Part shown: one piece after another, positions 14,810 to 30,333 of the stretch
How the letters are laid out: each line of letters opens with the position of its first letter
Numbering within the stretch: position 1 is the stretch's first letter
Assembly: GCF_003841465.1 (NCBI RefSeq)
Contig: NZ_REFZ01000004.1
Coordinates: 186,001 to 250,000, forward strand
DNA length: 64,000 bases
Reading direction: 5' to 3'
Origin: Natrarchaeobius oligotrophus
Lineage (GTDB): Archaea > Halobacteriota > Halobacteria > Halobacteriales > Natrialbaceae
The notes under the pieces: generated by a model
The model's input: only the letters and a program-made list of their open reading frames with translations
Database searches by the model: none
Told to the model about the DNA's origin: nothing
Position numbers and translations under genes: made by a program

Positions 14810-17800
14810 ATGAGCGGGGCGCGCGTATCGGTCGGACTGATCGCCGTGGTGATGGTTACGAGCGTCCTCGCGCTCCCGCTGCTCGGCGGCGGACTCGGTG
14901 GGTTCACGGAAGAGGGAAGCGACGGAGCCGAAACGCAGTCGGTGCCGAACGAACTCGAAACGGCCGATTCCGGACTCGCGACGGAGGCGTCCCACCAGCC
15001 GGATGCGGCGGCGACCGGGTCGGAACTCGAACTGGTGTCGATGGACGGTGCGGAACCGACGTCGGCGTCGCTCGCCCAGGAACGCGAGGACGCCCTCGAG
15101 GCGGGCGTCGAGGAGGGAATCGAACTCGCACAGGCCCAGGGCGTCGAGGTGAGCCAGGAACAGCGAACGGCCGCGCTCGAGGGTGCGAGCGAGTTCGTCG
15201 CCCAGTACCAGGAGGCCGACGTCGAACAGGTTCAGGAGGCGACGAAGGGTGCAGTTCACGGCTCGCTGATGGGGACCGGAGCGACCGACGACGAACCGGC
15301 GGTGGGGATGGAAGACGACGCGGCCGTCGAAACGGACGACGAGGACGGAACCGAGCGGCTTCGCGGTGCGGTCGGCGGCGCGGTCGGCGGCGCGCTCTCA
15401 CAGCACCAGACCGTCGAGGCGAGTCAGATGCAGAGCGCGGCCTGGGGCGCGACCCACGGCGCGCTCGCCCAGGAACAGCGCGTCACGGTCGAACAGATCC
15501 AGGTCGCGAGCTTCGGCGCGGCTGCCGGCGCGGCGAGCGAGGCCGGCGAAACCGACGTCGAACGGAAACCGAAGATCCAGGAGGCAGCCCAGGGAGCCGC
15601 CTACGGCGCTCTCGAGCAGTACCAGAAGATCACCGTCGAGCAGCGCCAGCAGGTGACCCTCGAGCACGTCCAGCACGCGGCCGCTGGAGCGTCCGCGGGC
15701 GCGCTCGAGGGGAGTAGCGTCGTGGCTCACGAGCAGGAACAGCTCGTCGAGGTCGAACAGCACCAGCGCGTGGACGTCAAGCAGGTCCAGAAGGCGGCGG
15801 CCGGCGCCGCGAAAGGCGCACTCGTCCAGAAACAGCAGGTGACGATCGAACAGACCCAGGCGGCCGCACGCGGCGCGGGGAAGGGATCGCTGATCCAGGT
15901 CCAGTCCGTTCGAATCGAGCAGGTCCAGCGGATTTCGATCGCGGCGATCCAGCAGGCCTCCTTCGGCTCCGCCAAGGGGGCGATTCAGCAGAGCCAGGAG
16001 GCGACCGTCGAACAGATCCAGTACGCCGCGATCGGTGGCGCCCAGGGGACGCTCGTCCAGCACCAGGAGGTGTCGATCACGCAGATCCAGTACGCCGCGA
16101 CCGGCGCGTCGAAGGGAGCCGTCGAGTCGGCGGTCCAGCGACAGATCGTCGAGGTCGAGCAGATCCAGGCGGCCGCGTGGGGAGCCGGCGAGGGGGCCGT
16201 CTTGCAGACGCAGGTCGTCGACGTGACGCAGGTCCAACAGCTAGCGCGAGGTGCCTCGAGCGGCGTCCTCGTCCAGCACCAGGAGGCGACGGTCACGCAG
16301 CTCCAGGCCGCCGCACGAAGCGCCTGCGCGGAGACCGCCCGCGCGATCCAGTACCAGCGGATCAGCGTGACCCAACTCCAGATCCTGACCCAGGAGACCG
16401 CGGCCGACGCGACCGCCTACGCGGTCGACGAGGGGACCGACGACGAGACGCGGCTCGTTCAGTTCGTCGAAGTAGACGTCGTCCAGAAGCTCGAGGCGAT
16501 CGAGGAACTCGAGGGGACGGCCACGATCTCGTTCGCGGATCAGGAATCCGACGGCGAGTCGGTCGTCGTCGACGACGTCTCGCTCTCGGAAGGCGGCTTC
16601 GTGGCGGTCTACGACGGCGCGGACGTGAGCGTCGATCCGGACGGAATCCGCGGCGTCTCCGACTCCCTCGAGCCCGGCGAGCACGAGGACGTCGAAATCC
16701 CGCTCGACGAGCCGCTCGGGGAGAGCGGACCGCTGGTCGCGGTCGTCCACCACGACACGAGCGGCGACGAGACGTTCCGGTACGCGGAGACCGACGGCAC
16801 GGAGGACGAACCCTACGTCGCCGACGGCGGCGGGCCGGTACTCGACGGCGCGTTCGTCACGCTCGAGGAAGAAGAGCCCGACGACCCGGTCGACGACCCT
16901 GACGAACCGGCCGACGAGCCGGAGGTGTCGCTCTCGGTGAGCAACCAGACCGGCGACGGCGAGACGCTGACCGTCGACGAGGCGAACGCGTCGGTCGCGT
17001 ACGCGCTCGCGGTCACCGACGAGGACGGCGACGAACGCGGCGAGACCGATCCCTTCGAGGCGGGCGAACCGGTCGAAAACGAGACCGTCGACCTCGAGCC
17101 GCCACTCGAGGACGACGCCGTACTCGAGGTCGCGGTTGTCTCGACGGACGACGACGGGACGCTCGCGAACGAAACGATCGAGTACACGCTCGAGGAGCCG
17201 GTCGAAGAGCTCTCGGTCGAGTACGTCGACTGCACGGAACTCGAGGTGACGGGCACGCTCGAGGATGGCGACTCGCTCGTTCCGCGGACGCTCTGGTACG
17301 ACTCGGTCGGTCCGGGCGACACCGTCTTCCCCGGCGTCACGGCCGGCGAGGAGATCGACGCGCCGTTCACCGGAACCGTCGTGATGACGGTCGGCGAGGA
17401 GTACGACGTCGAGCGGGTCGACGACGAGACGGTCGTTCTCGAGGTTCCCGACGAGGGCGCGTTCGGCTCGTTCGTCGTCCCGTGGTTCGACCCCGCCGAC
17501 GACGCGGAAGAACAGCTCGCGTCGCCGCCGCCGGAGCTCGACTGCGGCGACGAGATCCAGCCCGACGAGCCGACGATCGACGTCGAGGACGTCGAGTGGA
17601 CGGGAAGCTTCGACGTGACCTTCAGCTACGACAACCCCAACGACGCGGCGCTCACCGGCGGCGAGTTCGTCGAGGGGACGACCGACGACGAGCCTGTCGA
17701 CCTCGAGCCGGGTGCCGACGAGTTCACCGTCGCGTGGACTCCCGAGGACGACGACGAGCGTCTGGTATGGGAGGTTCCGATGGAGAACTTCGGTTACGAC

Positions 17801-19036
17801 GAGCCGATCAGCGCCGAGACGGAGTCCGCCGGCGAGTACGACGCGCCGGGGACGGCGGACGTCGAGTTCGTCGACTGCTCGCGGGCCGAGGTGACGGGTT
17901 CGTACGAGGACGGCGAGACGGTCATCGTCGCGACGGGATTCTACGAGTCCGGCGGCTTCGGAAACACGATGGGTGAGTACGCACTCAGCGTGGGCGACGA
18001 CGTCGACGCTCCGTTCGAGGGCACGATCGTCTTCGAGATCGGCGACGAGCACGCGATCACCGAAACCGACGAGGGCGCGATCGTCGAGGTTCCGGCCGGC
18101 GAGTTCGGCGCGGCGATTACGGGCATCAGCTCGCCCGAGGCGACGCCGGGTTCGATCGACTACCCGAACCCCGACGCCTCGGCGTGTCTCGAGGAGATCC
18201 GACCGGCGCTCCCCGCGATCGACGTCCAGGAGACGACGCCGACCGACGAGGGCATCGACGTGACCTTCGAGTACGACAATCCGAACGACGCCTCGCTCGC
18301 GGTGTTGAGTTCGTTCGTCGAAGGATCGACCGACGACGAACCGGTCGACGTACTGTCGGCCGACGGCGGCGCGTTCACGGTCACGTGGACGCCCGCGACC
18401 GACGACGAACGGCTCGTCTGGGAGATCGACATGAGCAACTACGACTACGAGCCGACGGACTGGCCGGTCGCAGAGACCGCCACCGCGGGAGAGATCGATC
18501 CGCAGGATCCCGAACCCGCCGAAGAGGAGCCGACGAGCCCGGACGAAACCGACGACGAACAGCCGGAATCCGCCGCAGATGAGCCGTCGGAACCCGGTGC
18601 GGACGATCTGATCGGAGACGACGCAGAGAACGGTGACGGCCTCGAGGGCGACGACGATCCGATCGAGAATGGAGGTGATCCTGTCGATGGCGACGCAGAG
18701 AACGGGGACGATCCGGCCGGCGACGCTGATACTGGTGACGATCCGGCCGGCGACGCTGATACTGGTGACGATCCGGCCGGCGACGCTGATACTGGTGACG
18801 ATCCGGCCGGCGACGCTGATACTGGTGACGATCCGGCCGGCGACGCTGACACCGGTGACGATTCGGCCGGCGGCGACGGAGACGCTCTCGAGAACGAACT
18901 CGAGGGGCAAGCCGAGTCACAGAACGCCGGAGACGAACCAGAGAGCGACGACGGCCTCGAGGGCGGGAACGATCAAACGCAACCTGCCGCGTCGAACGAC
19001 GAGTCGGCGGCCGAACCGGCGGCCGGATCGGAGTGA
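14810..19036 (+). CDS. Giant secreted or membrane-tethered protein with Gln-rich 23-residue repeats and DUF7282-like domains
   Basis: A 1408-residue acidic protein of unknown function. Residues 5-28 are hydrophobic (signal peptide or N-terminal anchor). From about 190 to 545 runs an array of 23-residue units of the pattern GALxQxQxVTVEQIQ plus AAxGAxx, alternating a beta-like Gln/Val stretch with a small-residue helix carrying GxxxG spacing. Residues about 571-690 match the haloarchaeal DUF7282 layout (SFADQESDGESVVVDDVSL), with a similar unit to about 800. Two related domains follow (803-1015, 1016-1225), each starting V(E)(Y/F)VDC and holding a second Cys, perhaps disulfide-linked. The tail is an Asp-rich linker with ten-residue repeats; no C-terminal membrane anchor is seen. 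An extracellular structural or adhesive role is inferred. Confidence 0.75.
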   Translation: MSGARVSVGLIAVVMVTSVLALPLLGGGLGGFTEEGSDGAETQSVPNELETADSGLATEASHQPDAAATGSELELVSMDGAEPTSASLAQEREDALEAGVEEGIELAQAQGVEVSQEQRTAALEGASEFVAQYQEADVEQVQEATKGAVHGSLMGTGATDDEPAVGMEDDAAVETDDEDGTERLRGAVGGAVGGALSQHQTVEASQMQSAAWGATHGALAQEQRVTVEQIQVASFGAAAGAASEAGETDVERKPKIQEAAQGAAYGALEQYQKITVEQRQQVTLEHVQHAAAGASAGALEGSSVVAHEQEQLVEVEQHQRVDVKQVQKAAAGAAKGALVQKQQVTIEQTQAAARGAGKGSLIQVQSVRIEQVQRISIAAIQQASFGSAKGAIQQSQEATVEQIQYAAIGGAQGTLVQHQEVSITQIQYAATGASKGAVESAVQRQIVEVEQIQAAAWGAGEGAVLQTQVVDVTQVQQLARGASSGVLVQHQEATVTQLQAAARSACAETARAIQYQRISVTQLQILTQETAADATAYAVDEGTDDETRLVQFVEVDVVQKLEAIEELEGTATISFADQESDGESVVVDDVSLSEGGFVAVYDGADVSVDPDGIRGVSDSLEPGEHEDVEIPLDEPLGESGPLVAVVHHDTSGDETFRYAETDGTEDEPYVADGGGPVLDGAFVTLEEEEPDDPVDDPDEPADEPEVSLSVSNQTGDGETLTVDEANASVAYALAVTDEDGDERGETDPFEAGEPVENETVDLEPPLEDDAVLEVAVVSTDDDGTLANETIEYTLEEPVEELSVEYVDCTELEVTGTLEDGDSLVPRTLWYDSVGPGDTVFPGVTAGEEIDAPFTGTVVMTVGEEYDVERVDDETVVLEVPDEGAFGSFVVPWFDPADDAEEQLASPPPELDCGDEIQPDEPTIDVEDVEWTGSFDVTFSYDNPNDAALTGGEFVEGTTDDEPVDLEPGADEFTVAWTPEDDDERLVWEVPMENFGYDEPISAETESAGEYDAPGTADVEFVDCSRAEVTGSYEDGETVIVATGFYESGGFGNTMGEYALSVGDDVDAPFEGTIVFEIGDEHAITETDEGAIVEVPAGEFGAAITGISSPEATPGSIDYPNPDASACLEEIRPALPAIDVQETTPTDEGIDVTFEYDNPNDASLAVLSSFVEGSTDDEPVDVLSADGGAFTVTWTPATDDERLVWEIDMSNYDYEPTDWPVAETATAGEIDPQDPEPAEEEPTSPDETDDEQPESAADEPSEPGADDLIGDDAENGDGLEGDDDPIENGGDPVDGDAENGDDPAGDADTGDDPAGDADTGDDPAGDADTGDDPAGDADTGDDPAGDADTGDDSAGGDGDALENELEGQAESQNAGDEPESDDGLEGGNDQTQPAASNDESAAEPAAGSE
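18707..18856 (+). repeat. Five tandem 30-bp repeats encoding DDPAGDADTG
   Basis: Units start at 18707, 18737, 18767, 18797 and 18827, the first four identical and the last with two silent changes. A sixth, partial unit begins at 18857. They lie inside the acidic C-terminal linker of the 1408-aa protein and keep its frame. The near-identity implies recent expansion or contraction, so copy number probably varies between strains. Confidence 0.9.
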
Positions 19037-21453: not shown

Positions 21454-21933
21454 TCAGCCGTTGAGATGTTCGGCCAGAAGCTCCGTAAACGCCCGTTGAT
21501 CGAGCCGACCCACGGATCGAAGCGCACCCGCGTTCAACGCGATCGCCCGTCCGAGCTTCGGTGCCCGCACCTCGAGAAACTCGCGCTCGCCGGCGATCAC
21601 CCGGCTGACGTCGACCCGGCTGAACTCGTTCGTGATTCGTGTGAGCTCCGACCGAGAGCTCGCCTCCAGGTCGCGTTTGACCGCGCGTCCGTCGGACGGT
21701 ACTGATCCGTTTCCCTCGCGAACGGTCGCGAGGAACGCTTCCTCTTTTTGCCACGTGAGACACTCGAGCGCGATTGCGTCCAGTCGGCTCGTCGCCTCGT
21801 CGCCCTCGACGTCCAACTCGAGACGTTCCCCTCTGGGAGTCTCGATCCGTCTAACGACGACGCTGACGCCGCGTTCGGTCACCGTCGTCAGGGTTTCGGT
21901 GGTCACCAAACCGTCAGTCGAGAGCCGAGTCAT
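21454..21933 (-). CDS. Unknown protein coupled to the ring-hydroxylating oxygenase
   Basis: A 159-residue soluble protein that I do not recognise. It starts MTRLSTDGLVTTETLTTVT and has an N-terminal antiparallel-looking strand pair (GVSVVVRRIETPRGERLELDV), a helix with LDAIALECLTWQKEEAFLATV, a basic middle and a C-terminal helix with QRAFTELLAEHL. Its start overlaps the stop of the oxygenase beta subunit as ATGA, so it is translated with that enzyme. This suggests an accessory role such as assembly, substrate binding or regulation. No redox motif or membrane segment is seen. The gene is well supported by operon structure; the function is open. Confidence 0.7.
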   Translation of the reverse strand: MTRLSTDGLVTTETLTTVTERGVSVVVRRIETPRGERLELDVEGDEATSRLDAIALECLTWQKEEAFLATVREGNGSVPSDGRAVKRDLEASSRSELTRITNEFSRVDVSRVIAGEREFLEVRAPKLGRAIALNAGALRSVGRLDQRAFTELLAEHLNG

Positions 21934-22439
21934 AGGAAAATCGAGAGGTTCCTTGTCGGGAGAACGGTCTGGTCGAGGCGCACGGTTCGACGAGCCAGCC
22001 GAAACTCGCCGTCGTCGTTCCGACGGAGCACGTCCTCTCGTTCGCCGGTGATGAGATCGTGGTCGGCGTCGTCGCCCTGGCTCCGGTAGACGATGACGTT
22101 GTTTTTGACGGTGACGTCGTCGTCGGCACGTTCGACGGGCCGAACGTTACCGACGATTCGTCGCGTTCGGGACGGGGGGTTTTCGGCCCAGGCGTACTCC
22201 TTATCGTATCGTTCCACCCGAGTCTGCAACGTCCCCCTGTCGTCGCGAAAGAGAAACCCGTCGTCGCTGAACTCCGACGCCTCCGCTCCTCGTTCTCTCA
22301 TCACGCGGCGGGGCACCCGGTATTCGATGTCGTCTGTCAGGAGCTCCAGCCACTCGTGGAGACGGTGATCGTCCAGAAGCTCCGCCTCCGTTACGAGAAA
22401 CTGCCGACACTCGAGCGTGAGAAGGTGCTCGTCGTTCAT
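21930..22439 (-). CDS. Ring-hydroxylating oxygenase small (beta) subunit
   Basis: A 169-residue SnoaL-like beta subunit of a Rieske non-haem iron oxygenase. The N-terminal helix ECRQFLVTEAELLDDHRLHE and the region WLELLTDDIEYRVPRRVMR are typical. RIVGNVRPVERADDDVTVKNN and a basic ending LARRTVRLDQTVL complete the cone fold. The subunit is structural in alpha3beta3 hexamers. The ATG at 22439 overlaps the alpha-subunit stop as ATGA. A beta subunit places this enzyme with aromatic-ring dioxygenases rather than with single-subunit betaine or carnitine oxygenases. Confidence 0.85.
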   Translation of the reverse strand: MNDEHLLTLECRQFLVTEAELLDDHRLHEWLELLTDDIEYRVPRRVMRERGAEASEFSDDGFLFRDDRGTLQTRVERYDKEYAWAENPPSRTRRIVGNVRPVERADDDVTVKNNVIVYRSQGDDADHDLITGEREDVLRRNDDGEFRLARRTVRLDQTVLPTRNLSIFL

Positions 22440-23857
22440 CGCCGTTCCTCCTGATTGGGTCGGCGGTCTCGGCGTTTGGACGGGGCGTCCTCTCGCTCGG
22501 CGTCGATTCGCCGGTGTGTCATCGCTCGGTACCAGCTTTGGTAGAACGTCCGCATCGTTCCGTCCTCGAGATTCGTGTCGTAGACGTCGCCGGGACCGGG
22601 CCACTCCTCGGAGATGTCCGCCGAGTCGCTCATTTCGCCGACTCCCATCTGAAAGTTCGACGTCGACCGGTGTTTTTTCACGTAGGTACTGCCGGCCGCT
22701 TCGGCGATGCCGTCCCACACCGCGAAGTCGTCCACCTCGAAGCTTCCGGAGATGCTGAACGTCGCGATTCCGGTGTCGTAGGCTCGCTCTTTGAACTCCT
22801 CGGAGGCCGTCCGCGGAACCAGTATCCAGTTCCAGAGCTGGGTCTTCTTCGGTCCGAGCGGTTGCCACTTTCGGAGATTGAGGAAGGCGGTTACCTCTCG
22901 GTCGTCGGGATCGGCGTTGAGATTCATCTGCAGGAACGACAGGTTCGGGAAAACGGTCCCGACGCTCGAGACGAGTCCCCTGGCGATCTCGAACTGGTCG
23001 GCCGACAGTCCGTCGGCCGAAAAGACCTCCGGCGGATATCCGCCGGTGAGGGTTCCGTTCTCGAGATACGCGAGCATGCAGGAGTGACCGCTGCAGTTCG
23101 TCACGTCGGCCGGAGCGCGCTCTGCCCCGGTTGCGGAGAGTTCGGGCGGGAAGATGTCGAGGTCCATCGCGGACTTGTGGGTCGCGAGGGTGTGGTAGGA
23201 GTCGCCGGTGAAGTTGTCGGCCCCGATCTTCCAGTTCGTGTCGATCTCCCATCGGATCGGTTCGCCGACGACCTCGAACCCGTCTTCGACGAACCCCAGG
23301 TTCAGATCGAGATACCAGGTGAAATCGCCGAGGTACTCCTCGAGCGGCGGAGCGCTCTCCGAGATGGTCGCGAAGACGAGTCCGCGGTAGCTATCGACCT
23401 GTGTCGCGGACTCTAGAGCGTGTTCGCAGGTATCGAGCTCCTGGTAGAACTCGTTTTTGTAGGGAACGCCGACCAACTCGCCAGTGTTCTTGTAGGTCCA
23501 GTTGTGGTACGGACACCGGAAGTGACTGGTGTTTCCCTGCTCGGCACGAACGACTGTCGTCCCACGGTGCTGACACGAGTCGAAGAGCACCCGAATCTCG
23601 CCGGTTTCGTCGCGAACGAAAATGAACGGGCTATCACCGACGTACCGCTTCGCGTAGTCACCGGGCTCCGGTATCTCCGAGACGTGGCCGACGAACACCC
23701 ACATCTCGCCGAACACTCGCTCGAGTTCCACCTCGTGAATCTCCCGGTCGTTGTGTATTCGTGAGGGGACCTCTCCGGTTTCGGCCACCCTGCCGACGTC
23801 CTCGACGACGTCCCGGACGTCTCGAGAGCCGGACACCTGATTGCTAGTGTCACCCAT
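22436..23857 (-). CDS. Ring-hydroxylating oxygenase large (alpha) subunit, Rieske type
   Basis: A 473-residue catalytic subunit. The Rieske centre has Cys95-Q-His97 (SCQHRG) and Cys115-P-Y-His118 (CPYHNW). The catalytic iron site is visible in NFTGDSYHTLATH: His222 and His227 are ligands and Asp219 is the bridging acid, the D-x2-H-x4-H pattern of naphthalene/biphenyl/phenylpropionate dioxygenases. The substrate is probably an aromatic acid or related ring but cannot be named. No reductase is encoded nearby; the stand-alone Rieske protein at 9.0 kb is one candidate donor. It is first in the alpha-beta-unknown operon and starts 29 bp behind a shared regulatory element. Confidence 0.88.
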   Translation of the reverse strand: MGDTSNQVSGSRDVRDVVEDVGRVAETGEVPSRIHNDREIHEVELERVFGEMWVFVGHVSEIPEPGDYAKRYVGDSPFIFVRDETGEIRVLFDSCQHRGTTVVRAEQGNTSHFRCPYHNWTYKNTGELVGVPYKNEFYQELDTCEHALESATQVDSYRGLVFATISESAPPLEEYLGDFTWYLDLNLGFVEDGFEVVGEPIRWEIDTNWKIGADNFTGDSYHTLATHKSAMDLDIFPPELSATGAERAPADVTNCSGHSCMLAYLENGTLTGGYPPEVFSADGLSADQFEIARGLVSSVGTVFPNLSFLQMNLNADPDDREVTAFLNLRKWQPLGPKKTQLWNWILVPRTASEEFKERAYDTGIATFSISGSFEVDDFAVWDGIAEAAGSTYVKKHRSTSNFQMGVGEMSDSADISEEWPGPGDVYDTNLEDGTMRTFYQSWYRAMTHRRIDAEREDAPSKRRDRRPNQEERR

Positions 23858-24152: not shown

Positions 24153-24869
24153 TCACGCCACGGTCGTCTGGGTTCGATCGTCCGCCGAGGACTCCGTGGG
24201 ACCGATCCGGGCTCCGAGCCAGCCGAACGCTTGGTCGAGCAGGATCACGAGGATGGCACCCGGAATGGCACCGGCCAGGAGAATCTCGTTCGCGTACCGC
24301 TGTTGGCCGAGAATAATCCATTGACCCAGGCCGCCAGCACCGATGAACGCCCCGAGGTAGGCGATGCCGACGCTCAGGACGATGGTCGTCCGAATACCCG
24401 CGATGATGACCGGTAGCGCGAGCGGGAGCTCGATCCGCCACAACCGTTGCAGGGACGTCATTCCCATCCCTCGACCCGCCTCGACCTGTGCGCTTTCGAC
24501 GTTCTGGATGCCCGCGACCGTGTTTTTCAGGATCGGTAACAGTCCGTAGAGAAACAGGGCGAGGATAGCCGGCCGCGGTCCGACGCCCAGGAACGCGAAC
24601 GTGAGCGCGATGACCCCGAGCGGCGGCACCGTCTGGGCGATCGCTCCCATGTTCATCACGGCCGACCCGACCGTCGGGTGGCGAGTGGCTGCGATGCCAG
24701 CCGGAACCGCGACGGCGATGGCTGCCGTCACTCCGATCACGACCATCTGAAGGTGCTCGCGAAGCATCACTGCGAACTGGTCGGGATTCTCGAGAATGTA
24801 TTCGATCCATCCAGTCAGCAACAGCGGAATCGCCGCCTCGACGGCGGACCCGACAGCCGGTTCAAACAT
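24153..24869 (-). CDS. OpuC-type ABC transporter permease (second)
   Basis: A 238-residue membrane protein with about six hydrophobic segments. It belongs to the ProW/OpuCB family for glycine-betaine-type and other quaternary-amine solutes. The EAA-like loop AGRGMGMTSLQRLWRIELP and the GIRTTIVLSVGIAYLGAFIG segment are typical. It overlaps the ATPase gene by 8 bp. Its N-terminus is longer than that of the partner permease at 25.9-26.5 kb, so the two probably form a heterodimeric channel. The importer lies between a lyase and an oxygenase gene, which suggests nutrient uptake rather than osmoprotection. Confidence 0.85.
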   Translation of the reverse strand: MFEPAVGSAVEAAIPLLLTGWIEYILENPDQFAVMLREHLQMVVIGVTAAIAVAVPAGIAATRHPTVGSAVMNMGAIAQTVPPLGVIALTFAFLGVGPRPAILALFLYGLLPILKNTVAGIQNVESAQVEAGRGMGMTSLQRLWRIELPLALPVIIAGIRTTIVLSVGIAYLGAFIGAGGLGQWIILGQQRYANEILLAGAIPGAILVILLDQAFGWLGARIGPTESSADDRTQTTVA

Positions 24870-25869
24870 GGTTCTCCTCGATGGCTCGTGACCGGCCGTC
24901 GAAGATGCTCCTGATGTGGACTTCCGAGAGCGATCCCACGACGGTTCCGTCTTCGACGACCGGAACGACGTCCGTCTCGCTTCGGAGCCAGTTCTGGACG
25001 GCCAGACGGAGCGTATCGTCCGGCGATAGCGGCGTGCCGCCGTCGTTTGTGGGGGCCTCGTTCGCCGGACCCATGACCTCTCGAACGGCGACGGTCTGTA
25101 ACTGTGCTAACTGGCGGTCTTCTCCGAGAAACGACTCGACGAAGGCGTTGTTCGGGTTGCGAAGCAGTTCCGCTGGTGGATCGTACTGAATAAGCTCCCC
25201 GTCCTGTAACACCGCGACCTTGTCGCCCATCTTCAGCGCCTCGTCGATGTCGTGGGTGACGAAGACGATGGTCACGTCGAGACCCGCCTGGATGTCGAGG
25301 AACTCGTTCTGGAGCTGTTCGCGCGTGATCGGATCCAGAGCCCCGAACGGCTCGTCCATCAACATCACTTCGGGTTCAGCAGCGAGCGCACGCGCGACGC
25401 CGACGCGCTGTTGTTGGCCGCCCGAGAGTTCCTGCGGGTATTTTGTCCGGACGTCGTCGTCGAGACGCACCAGCTCGAGCAACTCGGTCACCCGGTTCTC
25501 GATTCGGTCGTCCGACCATCCGACGATGTCGGGAACGATGCCGACGTTCTCCTCGATCGTCATGTGCTTGAACAGCCCGATATCCTGAATAACGTATCCG
25601 ACCTTTCGACGGAGTTCGATCGGATCGTACTCGGAGACTGGCGTCTCGTCGACGGAGACGGTACCCGTGGTCGGTTCGACCAGCGCGTTGACCATCTTCA
25701 TGGTCGTCGTCTTTCCGCAGCCGGATGGACCGACGAGTGTGGCGGTCTCGCCGCTCGAAACCGAGAACGAAACGTCGGTCACCGCCTCGGTTCCGTCGTC
25801 GTACACTTTGGTTACGTTTTCGAACGCGATCGAATTGGAAGCGGTTTCGGTTGCTGTATCGTGGCTCAT
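24862..25869 (-). CDS. OpuC-type ABC transporter ATPase with CBS tail
   Basis: A 335-residue ATP-binding subunit of a quaternary-amine importer. Walker A is GPSGCGKTT (residues 47-55), the signature LSGGQQQRVGVARAL, Walker B VMLMDEPFGALDP and the H-loop FVTHDIDEAL. After about residue 250 comes a CBS-type tail (LRSETDVVPVVEDGTVVGSL), as in OpuCA, where it senses ionic strength or ligand. Homologues of this architecture carry glycine betaine, carnitine, choline or ergothioneine, so the substrate cannot be read directly. It overlaps both permease genes. Confidence 0.87.
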   Translation of the reverse strand: MSHDTATETASNSIAFENVTKVYDDGTEAVTDVSFSVSSGETATLVGPSGCGKTTTMKMVNALVEPTTGTVSVDETPVSEYDPIELRRKVGYVIQDIGLFKHMTIEENVGIVPDIVGWSDDRIENRVTELLELVRLDDDVRTKYPQELSGGQQQRVGVARALAAEPEVMLMDEPFGALDPITREQLQNEFLDIQAGLDVTIVFVTHDIDEALKMGDKVAVLQDGELIQYDPPAELLRNPNNAFVESFLGEDRQLAQLQTVAVREVMGPANEAPTNDGGTPLSPDDTLRLAVQNWLRSETDVVPVVEDGTVVGSLSEVHIRSIFDGRSRAIEENHV

Positions 25870-26516
25870 GTGTCGATAACCTCGCTGTTGGGAAGCAGTC
25901 GTACCGTGGTCGCGAGACCGTAATCGAGGACGATAGCCAGTGCGGAGAGCACGATGGTGGCACCAATGATCTGATCCGCGTTGGCGAGTCTAATACCCGC
26001 AAAGATCGATCGACCGAGACCTCCCGCACCGAAGTAGGCCGCGACCGTGGTGATGGCAATTAAGAGGACGGTGGCCTGCCGTATCCCGGCCATGATGACC
26101 GGATACGCCATCGGTAACTGTACCCGGACGAGCAACTGCCGATCGGTTAGCCCGAGACCGCGGCCGGCCTCTTTCATCGCGCCGTCGGTTTCCGCGATTC
26201 CGACGACCGTGTTTCGCATAATCGGGAGCGCCGAGTACAACACCAGCGCGACGATCGCCGGCGCCTCCCCGATACCGAAGAACGGAATCAACAGTGGCAA
26301 CAGCGCGAGGCTGGGAATCGTCAGCACGATACCGGACGCACCGAGAAGTACCTGCGAGACCCGCTCGTTGTTTCGGACGAGAACGCCTGTCGGCACCCAC
26401 AGGACGATTCCGATCACGAGAGCAGTCAGTGCGATAGACAGGTGCTGGATCGACTGCCGGACCAACACGTCGCTGTTCGCCCCCATCCACTCGACCGTTT
26501 CGACGAGACTGACCAT
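25866..26516 (-). CDS. OpuC-type ABC transporter permease (first)
   Basis: A 216-residue permease of the ProW/OpuC family with about five or six membrane segments. It has the EAA-like loop EAGRGLGLTDRQLLVRVQLP and the conserved GIRQATVLLIAITTVAAYFG. It starts 3 bp after the binding-protein stop and overlaps the ATPase start by 4 bp (ATGA), so the four transporter genes form one tightly coupled operon: binding protein, permease, ATPase, permease. Confidence 0.86.
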   Translation of the reverse strand: MVSLVETVEWMGANSDVLVRQSIQHLSIALTALVIGIVLWVPTGVLVRNNERVSQVLLGASGIVLTIPSLALLPLLIPFFGIGEAPAIVALVLYSALPIMRNTVVGIAETDGAMKEAGRGLGLTDRQLLVRVQLPMAYPVIMAGIRQATVLLIAITTVAAYFGAGGLGRSIFAGIRLANADQIIGATIVLSALAIVLDYGLATTVRLLPNSEVIDT

Positions 26517-26518
26517 CG

Positions 26519-27442
26519 TCAGATGTGGCCGTTCGTCTCGAGGTAGTCACGTGCGACGTTTTCCGGATCCTCTCCGTCGATCGAGACGCGGCCGTTGAGC
26601 CCCCGTATCGTTTCTGCGTCGAGTTCCGGGGTGACCGAATTGAACGACTCCCGTATCTCGTCTGTGACCACGTCCTGGCGGACGTTTGGCGCGGGATTGT
26701 AGATGACGAAATGATTGCGGACGTCTTCGATCACCTCGAGATCGTACCGTTCGATCTCGGCGTCGGTCTCGAACGCGAAGGCGACGTCGACCTCTCCCTC
26801 GTCGACGGCCTGTACCGCCAGACCGAGGTCCATGTTGACGGTCTCGATGTCGTCCGCGCTCTCTTCGAACTCGTAGGTTTCCGGAATGCCGGCCCACCCA
26901 TCTTCGCGCTCTTCGATTTCCGGATTCATTCCGACGCTGAAGTCCGTATTGCCTGCTTCGGCGTACTCCGCTAGCTCCTCGAGATCCGTGACGCCCGACT
27001 CCGATACCCATTCGTCGTTCGATACGATGACGTACGTGTTGTTGAACGGTGCTGGCTCGAGCCACTCGATATCGTACTCCTCTTCGTACGCCGTCGCGAC
27101 TTCCTGGTACAGCTGATCGGGATCGTCGATCGGTTCGTCCTCCTCGAGAATGTTCAGCCAGGCCGTTCCCGTGTACTCCCAGTACACTCCGACCTCCTCG
27201 TTTCGCATGGCCTCGAAATTGGCCATCGTGCCTCCGAGTCCGGTGTTGTCCTCGGTGTCGTGGCCCTCAGCCTCGAGGAGTTCTCTGCTGATGTTCGCGA
27301 GAATGAACTGTTCGGAAAACTCCTTCGAGGAAACTCCGATCGCGTCGCCGGAGAACATCCCGAGGCATCCCGAAACGCTCGCACCAACCGTACTCGCACC
27401 GATCCCCGCAAGCGCCTGTCTTCGTGAGACAGTGTTTGGCAT
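26519..27442 (-). CDS. OpuC-type substrate-binding lipoprotein
   Basis: A 307-residue exported binding protein. The N-terminus carries a Tat motif (SRRQALAG, Arg7-Arg8) and a lipobox VSGC with Cys26, so it should be membrane-anchored outside the cell. The body is an OpuAC/OpuCC-type two-lobe fold for quaternary amines: SSKEFSEQFILANISRELLE, NTGLGGTMANFEAMRNEEV, VYWEYTGTAWLNIL and PAPFNNTYVIV are recognisable. Tyr and Trp residues at WEYTGTAW could form part of an aromatic cage for a cationic ligand. A second ATG four codons upstream (27454) is possible. It is first in the transporter operon and lies behind copy B of the shared element. Confidence 0.85.
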   Translation of the reverse strand: MPNTVSRRQALAGIGASTVGASVSGCLGMFSGDAIGVSSKEFSEQFILANISRELLEAEGHDTEDNTGLGGTMANFEAMRNEEVGVYWEYTGTAWLNILEEDEPIDDPDQLYQEVATAYEEEYDIEWLEPAPFNNTYVIVSNDEWVSESGVTDLEELAEYAEAGNTDFSVGMNPEIEEREDGWAGIPETYEFEESADDIETVNMDLGLAVQAVDEGEVDVAFAFETDAEIERYDLEVIEDVRNHFVIYNPAPNVRQDVVTDEIRESFNSVTPELDAETIRGLNGRVSIDGEDPENVARDYLETNGHI

Positions 27443-27466
27443 ATGGTGTCTCATGCCGGTTCTCTC

Positions 27467-27673: not shown

Positions 27674-29170
27674 CTAGTCGATCTCGACGCCGTTCGCTTC
27701 GACGACGTCGACGATCGTTCCCGTCCGTATCTGCTCGGTCAGTGCGGCGATGTAGTCGAGAGAGGGTGTGTCCGCGACCGGATCCTCTACGACGGCGTCA
27801 ACGTGATCGAGAACCGCTTCGAGCGCCGGATCCATCGAACCGTCCGCCGAAAGGTTGTGGTGACGGTTTGCACACAGTAGTTCTATCGCCAGCATGCGGC
27901 TCACCGTCTCGACCGTTTCGGTTAGCTTTCTCGCGCTGATCGTCCCCATCGAGTGGATGTCCTCCTGACCGCCGGAGACGGTGACAGAGTGGCTGCTGAT
28001 GGAGTCGGTCGCGAGCGTTTCGGCCAGCAATCCACTCGACGTGTACTGGACCATCATGAGCCCGGACTCGACGCCAGGGTTTGCGGCCAGGAACGGAAAG
28101 TCGTCCTGTTTGTCCCGCAGCAACAGCCTGTTTCGACTCTCGCTGATCGATCCGAGTTTGGTGACGACGTTTCGGAGGGAATCCGCCGCGCTCGCGATCG
28201 GCTGTCCGTTGAACGCACCACAGGAGTAAATCTTCCCGTCCGGAAATACGAGCGGATTGTCCGTAGCGCTCCGTAACTCGGTGTCGACGGTCTCTCGGCC
28301 GAAATCGAGGTGTGAACGGACGGTTCCGTGAACCTGCGGGATCACCCGTAACGACAGCGGATCCTGAACCATCTTCGGCGACGAGCCGTCGGCGTCCCGG
28401 TTCAGGAGCGCCCGCACGTTGGACGCAGATGTCGCGTGTCCGTCGTGTGGGCGGACGTCGCTGACGCGGTCGGCGAACGTTTCGGGCGCGTCTCCCACCA
28501 GTTCGAACGTGAGGGCGCTGACGACGTCCGCGGTCCGGACGAGTCGATCGATATCGTGAACGTTGAGCGCCAGCATTCCCGTCATAACGGCCGTTCCGCT
28601 GACCAGCGACATCGCCTCTTTCGGGGCCAGCCGCACGGGTTCGATACCGGCCCGTTCGAGCGCTTCGCCCCCAGACACGATCTCTCCGCCGATCTCCGCC
28701 TCTCCCTTTCCGAGGAGGACCAGCCCGACGTGTGCGATCGCCGTGAGGTCGTCGGTCGACCCGCCGAGAGACATTCGCGGATGAACGCCCTCGTTCAACA
28801 TCGCACACAGCTTGTGGACGATCTCCGGTCTCACTCCCGATCGACCCGCAGCGAGCGTGTTCGCCTTCGCCACCATCGCGGCGCGAGTGACCTCCGTCGA
28901 CGCGATCGGTTCGACGGCGGTGATCGTGCTCTCGATGATGTTCTCTTGCATCTCCTGAATCCGTTCTCGCGAGATGGATTTCCCGTGCAGGTCGCCGACG
29001 CCCGCATTCACGCCGTAGATGTGATAGTCGCCGCGTCGAACGATGTCGTCGACAACCGCCCGTACGTCTTCCATTCGTTCGACGGTCTCCGCGGACGGTG
29101 CAACGTCCGCGTTCTCGCGGGCGATAGCGACGAGATCCTGCGTCGTGAGTTCACCGGTTAGTTCGATCAT
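27674..29170 (-). CDS. Aromatic/histidine ammonia-lyase homologue lacking the MIO triad
   Basis: A 498-residue member of the HAL/PAL/TAL fold. Conserved landmarks are Y52-GVN (the catalytic Tyr motif YGxN), D270-P...SLR275-IPQVHG, SATDNP at 301-306, and QED at 402-404 followed by IHSMG. The MIO-forming Ala-Ser-Gly is missing: aligned on the following DL, the sequence is Ser138-Thr139-Asp140 in SLGGSTDDLTAIAH. The Asn that supports MIO (LINGT in HAL) is Ser191, and the Tyr of QDxYS is Leu272. Ergothionase, which eliminates trimethylamine from ergothioneine, is as I recall a MIO-independent member of this fold, so elimination from a betaine is a reasonable hypothesis. Classical histidase activity is unlikely. 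Confidence 0.8.
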   Translation of the reverse strand: MIELTGELTTQDLVAIARENADVAPSAETVERMEDVRAVVDDIVRRGDYHIYGVNAGVGDLHGKSISRERIQEMQENIIESTITAVEPIASTEVTRAAMVAKANTLAAGRSGVRPEIVHKLCAMLNEGVHPRMSLGGSTDDLTAIAHVGLVLLGKGEAEIGGEIVSGGEALERAGIEPVRLAPKEAMSLVSGTAVMTGMLALNVHDIDRLVRTADVVSALTFELVGDAPETFADRVSDVRPHDGHATSASNVRALLNRDADGSSPKMVQDPLSLRVIPQVHGTVRSHLDFGRETVDTELRSATDNPLVFPDGKIYSCGAFNGQPIASAADSLRNVVTKLGSISESRNRLLLRDKQDDFPFLAANPGVESGLMMVQYTSSGLLAETLATDSISSHSVTVSGGQEDIHSMGTISARKLTETVETVSRMLAIELLCANRHHNLSADGSMDPALEAVLDHVDAVVEDPVADTPSLDYIAALTEQIRTGTIVDVVEANGVEID

Positions 29171-29576: not shown

Positions 29577-29608
29577 GAGTAAAGGTTCCGCCCGATATAT
29601 AGGGGTGT
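29577..29608 (-). promoter_or_regulatory. Shared 32-bp upstream element, copy C (lyase transcript)
   Basis: On the plus strand it reads GAGTAAAGGTTCCG followed by CCCGATATATAGGGGTGT. It matches copy A at 26 of 32 positions without gaps. It touches the stop codon of the upstream HTH_10 regulator and points towards the frameshifted ORF and the lyase gene, whose ATG is about 400 bp away. The first possible ATG (29551) is 26 bp downstream. Confidence 0.7.
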
Positions 29609-30333
29609 TAATGGTTCGTCCGGGCGGTCGAGTGGTAGTTTTCGACGATAAATTCCGCCAGCGTTCGCGAGGCCCGGTTGATGTGCTCTCCGACGGTCGA
29701 CTTGTGCAGGTCCATCTCGTCGCCGAGTTCCTCGAGCGAGACCTTGCTGGGCTGGTCGTAGTAGCCGCGCTCCAGGGCCAGCGACAGCACCTCCATCTGT
29801 CGGTCGGTGAGTGCCGTGAGCAGCTCCGACCACGCCAGCGGGTTCGGGAGCGTCGAAAACTCGGCCCCCGAGATGATCTGTTCGATCGTCACGGTACAGA
29901 TCTCGTCCAACTCGTCGACGAGGAACGCGAGCTGCTCTCGGTTCCAGACGAGCGTGTCGAGATAGAACCAGCCGTTTCGAAAGAAGGAGGGTTCGAAGAG
30001 CAGATACTCGTTTTCGGTAATCATGCGGAAAGGCGTCATTTGATCGAACACGGCGGTGACGAAGAGAACCGCATATTTGTGTTTCACGTCGAGGGCACGT
30101 TCGATAACGTCGACTCGCACGTGGTAGGACGCGTCCCTGATGAGTTCGATCCCCTTGGCAACGTCCTCCCCGTAGAGACGAATCAATCCGGTGTAGTGGG
30201 TGTCGACCAGGCTGGCGGTGAAAATATCCCCCTGAATGTCGTATCGACCGACCTGCTCCGTCCAGTCTCCCTCCATCCGAATTCGCAATCGGACGGATGC
30301 GACCTGGCCCTCCTGTAGCTCGTTCGAACTCAT
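29608..30333 (-). CDS. HTH_10 (bacterio-opsin-activator type) transcriptional regulator
   Basis: A 241-residue regulator starting at the ATG at 30333 (MSSNELQEGQVASVRLRIR). The N-terminal 170 residues form a sensor-like domain typical of haloarchaeal Bat relatives; the C-terminus (about 175-235) is an HTH_10 with LTDRQMEVLSLALERGYYD and LEELGDEMDLHKSTVGEHI. Members of this family activate genes through upstream sites placed before the TATA box. It is the first gene of the lyase-transporter-oxygenase cluster, which carries three copies of a shared upstream element, so it is the obvious candidate activator. The inducer is unknown. Confidence 0.83.
   Translation of the reverse strand: MSSNELQEGQVASVRLRIRMEGDWTEQVGRYDIQGDIFTASLVDTHYTGLIRLYGEDVAKGIELIRDASYHVRVDVIERALDVKHKYAVLFVTAVFDQMTPFRMITENEYLLFEPSFFRNGWFYLDTLVWNREQLAFLVDELDEICTVTIEQIISGAEFSTLPNPLAWSELLTALTDRQMEVLSLALERGYYDQPSKVSLEELGDEMDLHKSTVGEHINRASRTLAEFIVENYHSTARTNH

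Follow-up and report, generated by a model that had tools for sequence, protein, structure and literature searches.

A 498-amino-acid homologue of the aromatic amino acid lyases, encoded in the window (the whole 64,000-nucleotide stretch of Natrarchaeobius oligotrophus DNA that was analyzed), lacks the MIO triad and is probably a betaine trimethylamine-lyase, that is, a beta-eliminase on the histidine ammonia-lyase fold that would act on an aromatic or imidazole betaine independently of MIO. This degree of confidence applies to betaine trimethylamine-lyase chemistry in general, whatever the substrate. The MIO-less lyase itself is real, conserved and under selection, beyond chance or reading error. 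The gene and the positions discussed below are:

27674..29170, reverse strand: MIO-less aromatic-lyase homologue, 498 amino acids, predicted betaine trimethylamine-lyase (open reading frame, PF00221, dN/dS).
28730..28765, reverse strand: loop G136-H147 (GGSTDDLTAIAH) in place of the MIO loop, with S138-T139-D140 encoded by codons 28751-28759.
28598..28600, reverse strand: S191, where the MIO-supporting Asn stands in lyases (translation and alignment).
28355..28360, reverse strand: P271-L272, where QDAYS has Ala-Tyr (translation and alignment).
28925..28927, reverse strand: T82, where HAL has the substrate-site His (translation and alignment).

Residues 8-457 match PF00221 with 448.2 bits in a profile search (curated cut-off 27.3), which places the protein within the superfamily. 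The fold is shared with HutH, as are Tyr52, Gln269, Arg275 and Glu403, but the window protein carries Ser for Asn, Leu for Tyr and Thr for His, has no Ala-Ser-Gly (ASG), and scores 399.2 bits against the hutH NCBIfam equivalog (TIGR01225), below the histidine ammonia-lyase cut-off of 539.15. MIO is known to form by cyclization of Ala-Ser-Gly. A scan of all 498 residues found this triad neither in the loop, where the sequence-only reading had allowed that an intact copy might lie, nor anywhere else, so that the known cyclization is impossible in this protein. The features of MIO-dependent ammonia-lyases and aminomutases are thus missing together: the triad, the supporting Asn (S191) and the Tyr of QDxYS (L272).

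The same reading had described Ala-Ser-Gly as replaced by Ser138-Thr139-Asp140. The residues are as it named them, but a gapped alignment with 14 ASG-bearing haloarchaeal lyases (HutH-type loop GSLGASGDLAPLAH) shows a three-residue deletion after S138 that removes the Ala and the two residues before it, while the MIO Ser aligns to T139 and the MIO Gly to D140. Its span for the change, 28745-28764, overlaps these codons and extends from L142 to part of G136. The substitutions Ser191 and Leu272 and the retention of Tyr52, Arg275, N305-P306 (DNP) and Q402-E403-D404 (QED) were all borne out by translation and alignment. Its statement that MIO cannot form and that the chemistry must differ agrees with the missing triad but is not new in itself, as ergothionase, which is reported to lack MIO (PMC13405746), is a precedent.

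In the HAL of G. kaustophilus, mutation of Y52, H82, N194 or E411 abolishes activity (PMC11432326); the window lyase retains the Tyr and the Glu (E403) and alters the His (T82) and the Asn (S191). Together with L272 and the absence of ASG, these two changes make histidine ammonia-lyase chemistry very unlikely for this protein. The genome contains two PF00221 genes, the window lyase and a normal ASG-bearing HutH on contig C2, which adjoins hutU and hutI in a complete-looking hutU-hutI-hutH locus; the urocanase gene of this locus is the only one in the genome. Comparison of the window lyase with that of the congener G425 (78% identical) gave a dN/dS of 0.18, by which measure the gene is under purifying selection. 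A pseudogene or a sequencing error was ruled out by this value and by the deletion being common to relatives. A single-sequence AlphaFold model was unusable (mean pLDDT 36.8).

The MIO-loop deletion is common to 14 aligned haloarchaeal proteins, which are not all independent: some rows are near copies or one locus drawn from two collections (two Haloarcula, two Halocatena-type). Thirteen of the proteins have Asp at position 140 and the remaining one has Glu, positions 271-272 are Pro-Leu throughout, position 191 is Ser or Asp, and position 321 is Asn in 14 of 14 whereas the 14 ASG-bearing lyases have His. Tyr52, Gln269, Arg275, Asn305, and Glu403 are invariant. All 14 proteins form one clade in the tree (support 100/100), within which subclade A has support 98/91 and subclade B, which includes the window protein, 91/62. 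Position 82 is Thr in the window, Ser in G425, His in hut-linked relatives and Asn in urocanase-linked relatives; loss of His82 as a sure mark of a non-imidazole ring was rejected because the urocanase-linked relatives also lack it.

Searches with score cuts set to exclude HutH found relatives in 4 of 125 genomes of the family and 12 of 392 of the order, and a draw of 393 genomes from the phylum yielded, among 30 loci read, the query and 29 ASG-bearing lyases. Haloarcula, Haladaptatus, Halocatena, and Halomicrococcus carry further relatives on megaplasmids. No lyase relatives were found on viral contigs, and a scan of the genome-contig collection with the query (P0001) returned a single match, a distant ASG-bearing lyase. 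In the plasmid collection, 197 Klebsiella plasmid records had a match to the lyase query.

Proteobacterial genes annotated as hutH whose products carry a GYLTH loop (Pseudomonas/Rhizobium/Burkholderia type) have the same three-residue deletion and, like the window lyase, a Leu for the Tyr (Tyr280), but these proteins retain Asn195 and form a separate clade (100/100). The joint clade of GYLTH and archaeal MIO-less proteins has support 77/91, and a topology that instead joins the archaeal MIO-less proteins to archaeal HutH was not rejected (p-AU 0.447), in trees that contain no true ergothionase sequences. One MIO loss may be common to both clades, a proposal that the trees neither show nor reject. 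The bacterial GYLTH members are L045, L046, L047, L058, L061, L062, L066, L074, L087, and L112, of which the plasmid-borne L045-L047 are named hutH and adjoin an amino-acid ABC importer, plus hutC in two cases. An assignment of the Burkholderia and Rhizobium plasmid genes as ergothionases was dropped, the Rhizobium protein being closer to HALs than to the ergothionase 6s7j. A very divergent PF00221-like protein (L116, from G807) likewise lacks ASG in its loop, GSLGAADLAQLAQ.

In the window, the lyase gene stands in a cassette with a regulator and the genes of a predicted betaine importer:

29608..30333, reverse strand: HTH_10 regulator, the cassette's first gene (PF04967; conserved beside the cassette).
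26519..27454, reverse strand: OpuAC substrate-binding lipoprotein of the predicted betaine ABC importer (PF04069; alignment to ProX).
25866..26516, reverse strand: ABC permease 1 (PF00528).
24862..25869, reverse strand: ABC ATPase, ProV-like (TIGR01186, 308.6 bits, under the cut-off of 326.6).
24153..24869, reverse strand: ABC permease 2 (PF00528).

The ligand residues of ProX (aromatic cage and carboxylate) we take to be K13, Y63, T66, Y111, R149, Y190, and Y214. In an alignment with ProX of A. fulgidus, the OpuAC domain of the window binding protein retains all of these except Y190, which is Phe. The retained residues point to a quaternary ammonium compound with a carboxylate, i.e., a betaine, as the ligand. 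The binding protein matches ProX with 125 bits and the ergothioneine transporter EgtUC with 106 bits.

Gene-order comparison showed the full set (HTH_10 regulator, binding protein, permease, ATPase, permease, lyase) together in subclade B, namely in the window, G425, G938, G948, Haladaptatus, and Halocatena/G1123. A ProX/OpuC-type importer adjoins all subclade-B lyases and 4 of the 6 subclade-A loci. In G938 and G948, which belong to the same genus and count as one case, the cassette lies directly next to hutU, hutG, and hutI, which are accompanied by an ASG-bearing HutH. Each of the subclade-A loci (G406, G404, two Haloarcula, Halomicrococcus, and G1105) encodes an additional urocanase (HutU_a) together with a hydantoinase-like amidohydrolase, and five of the six have a D-aminoacylase. 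This gene content suggests ergothioneine catabolism, with HutU_a below the NCBIfam cut-off for thiourocanate hydratase and the amidohydrolase below that for ErtD. In Halomicrococcus and G1105 the importer is replaced by a gene for an MttB-type trimethylamine methyltransferase, accompanied in Halomicrococcus by a corrinoid protein. No ergothioneine catabolic genes were found near the lyase in the window. A divergent protein in G1104 has none of the subclade A or B neighbors.

In the window genome and in G425 the cassette runs on into three further genes:

22436..23857, reverse strand: Rieske ring-hydroxylating dioxygenase alpha subunit (PF00355, PF00848; nearest PDB entry 2b1x).
21930..22439, reverse strand: Rieske dioxygenase beta subunit (PF00866; NF007479 above its cut-off).
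21454..21933, reverse strand: small gene accompanying the Rieske pair (also beside it in G425, G396, and G397).

The PDB entry nearest to the alpha subunit is a naphthalene dioxygenase, and the score of the beta subunit lies above the threshold for the 3-phenylpropionate/cinnamate dioxygenase beta subfamily; Pfam and NCBIfam searches with the small gene gave no match. The whole block of cassette and Rieske genes is missing between the flanking genes in the congeners G424 and G426. The Rieske pair and the small gene recur together in G396 and G397 (alpha 76-77% identical), there beside a second, ASG-bearing lyase. A shared arylacrylate substrate would be the simplest link between the lyases and the Rieske genes. 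The second lyases (L179 and L180) have Asn at the HAL His position, score above the hutH cut-off and have an aminotransferase class I/II gene nearby; they are probably not histidases, and both genomes carry another PF00221 gene with His at that position, plus one urocanase. Two other homologues of the Rieske alpha subunit in the window genome (C2:203456-204784 and C9:114785-116173) contain one stop each inside the aligned stretch and are possibly decayed copies.

In enzymes that use it, the electrophilic MIO serves to activate an amine that is a poor leaving group. MIO would be unnecessary in the proposed reaction because a trimethylammonium group departs as neutral trimethylamine. An aromatic or imidazole amino-acid betaine would be taken up by the ProX/OpuC-type importer and bound with its carboxylate at Arg275 and its ring at Glu403. 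Tyr52 may then act as the base that takes the beta proton and Asp140, at the former MIO Gly site, may stabilize the cation, so that the quaternary amine would leave as trimethylamine and an aryl- or imidazolylacrylate would be released. In the hut-linked relatives this would convert hercynine to urocanate, and in subclade A, which has a urocanase of its own, probably ergothioneine to thiourocanate; in the window the acrylate would probably be handed to the Rieske dioxygenase. We infer the activity, the residue roles and the substrate from the observed sequence changes, the clade, the gene neighborhoods and the importer's ligand residues. The MttB gene in Halomicrococcus and G1105 and the corrinoid protein argue for trimethylamine handling beside the lyase. 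Against the betaine-lyase reading count the greater distance of the lyase from 6s7j than from MIO-bearing HALs, the scores of HutU_a and the amidohydrolase below their cut-offs, the restriction of hut adjacency to one genus, and the Rieske partner, which fits neither known hercynine nor known ergothioneine catabolism.

The Rieske dioxygenase in the cassette and the loss of His82 suggest that ergothioneine may not be the betaine cleaved in the window. Our tentative proposal is an aromatic betaine that is neither ergothioneine nor hercynine (e.g., tryptophan, phenylalanine, or tyrosine betaine), whose arylacrylate would be oxidized by the linked cinnamate/naphthalene-type dioxygenase; His82 is missing in G425 as well, and in G396 and G397 the Rieske trio stands beside a lyase with the His to Asn change. 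It is more doubtful that the window lyase, as in relatives, releases trimethylamine from hercynine (histidine betaine) and passes urocanate on to the hut enzymes. In favor are the hutU-hutG-hutI-hutH genes directly beside a cassette of this type in G938 and G948, the hut locus of the window genome and the retained Glu403; against it, the His that is essential in GkHAL (PMC11432326) is replaced by Thr in the window lyase and by Ser in that of G425 yet remains His in the hut-linked relatives, and the window cassette is tied to Rieske genes rather than hut genes.

An ordinary archaeal ergothionase, converting ergothioneine to thiourocanate and trimethylamine, is unlikely in the window. The window cluster has no urocanase or hydantoinase of its own, the sole urocanase of the genome belonging to the hut locus, a Rieske dioxygenase is linked instead, His82 is gone and the binding protein is closer to ProX, even though the family offers an MIO-free precedent (PMC13405746), ergothioneine-like gene sets adjoin subclade A and EgtUC is also matched by the binding protein. 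Loss of MIO together with its supporting Asn and Tyr could also mean a catalytically dead protein retained as a regulator or scaffold, but this is improbable given the five residues invariant over the clade, the conservation of the replacement residues and the linked importer. An amino-acid ammonia-lyase with a different electrophile built from the new loop is scarcely credible: the fold and the ring and carboxylate residues would allow it, but we know of no precedent, an ASG-bearing HutH is already present in the genome and the constant neighbor of the window type is a betaine importer.

Among the known systems close to the proposed enzyme is the ergothionase of T. denticola (PDB 6s7j/6s7q), a homologue in the same family (6s7j, E = 9e-43 in a PDB sequence search) that removes trimethylamine from an imidazole betaine and is reported to lack MIO (PMC13405746, citing Maurer 2019). 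It differs in that 6s7j is more distant in sequence from the window lyase than MIO-bearing HALs are (in PDB searches with lyase queries it ranked 14th to 35th), and in that the window locus has a Rieske dioxygenase in place of ergothioneine-pathway genes. Phenylalanine and tyrosine ammonia-lyases and aminomutases share the fold, and an arylacrylate is the product proposed for the window lyase as well, but they use MIO and have Gln where the window lyase has Glu403 (tyrosine aminomutase alignment). MIO-free elimination is therefore already known from bacterial ergothionase, while the archaeal clade, pathway and substrate look new. With the proposed activity, elimination without the cofactor on this fold would reach into the archaea, in a conserved clade equipped with an importer. 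It would suggest as a rule that MIO is absent where the amine to be expelled is quaternary from the outset, and could be a trimethylamine source in hypersaline environments. The label "ammonia-lyase" on MIO-less members is probably wrong.

Elsewhere in the window, a 1408-amino-acid open reading frame (14810-19036, forward strand) encodes glutamine/alanine-rich repeats, with GDDPAGDADT repeated in tandem close to the end of the frame.
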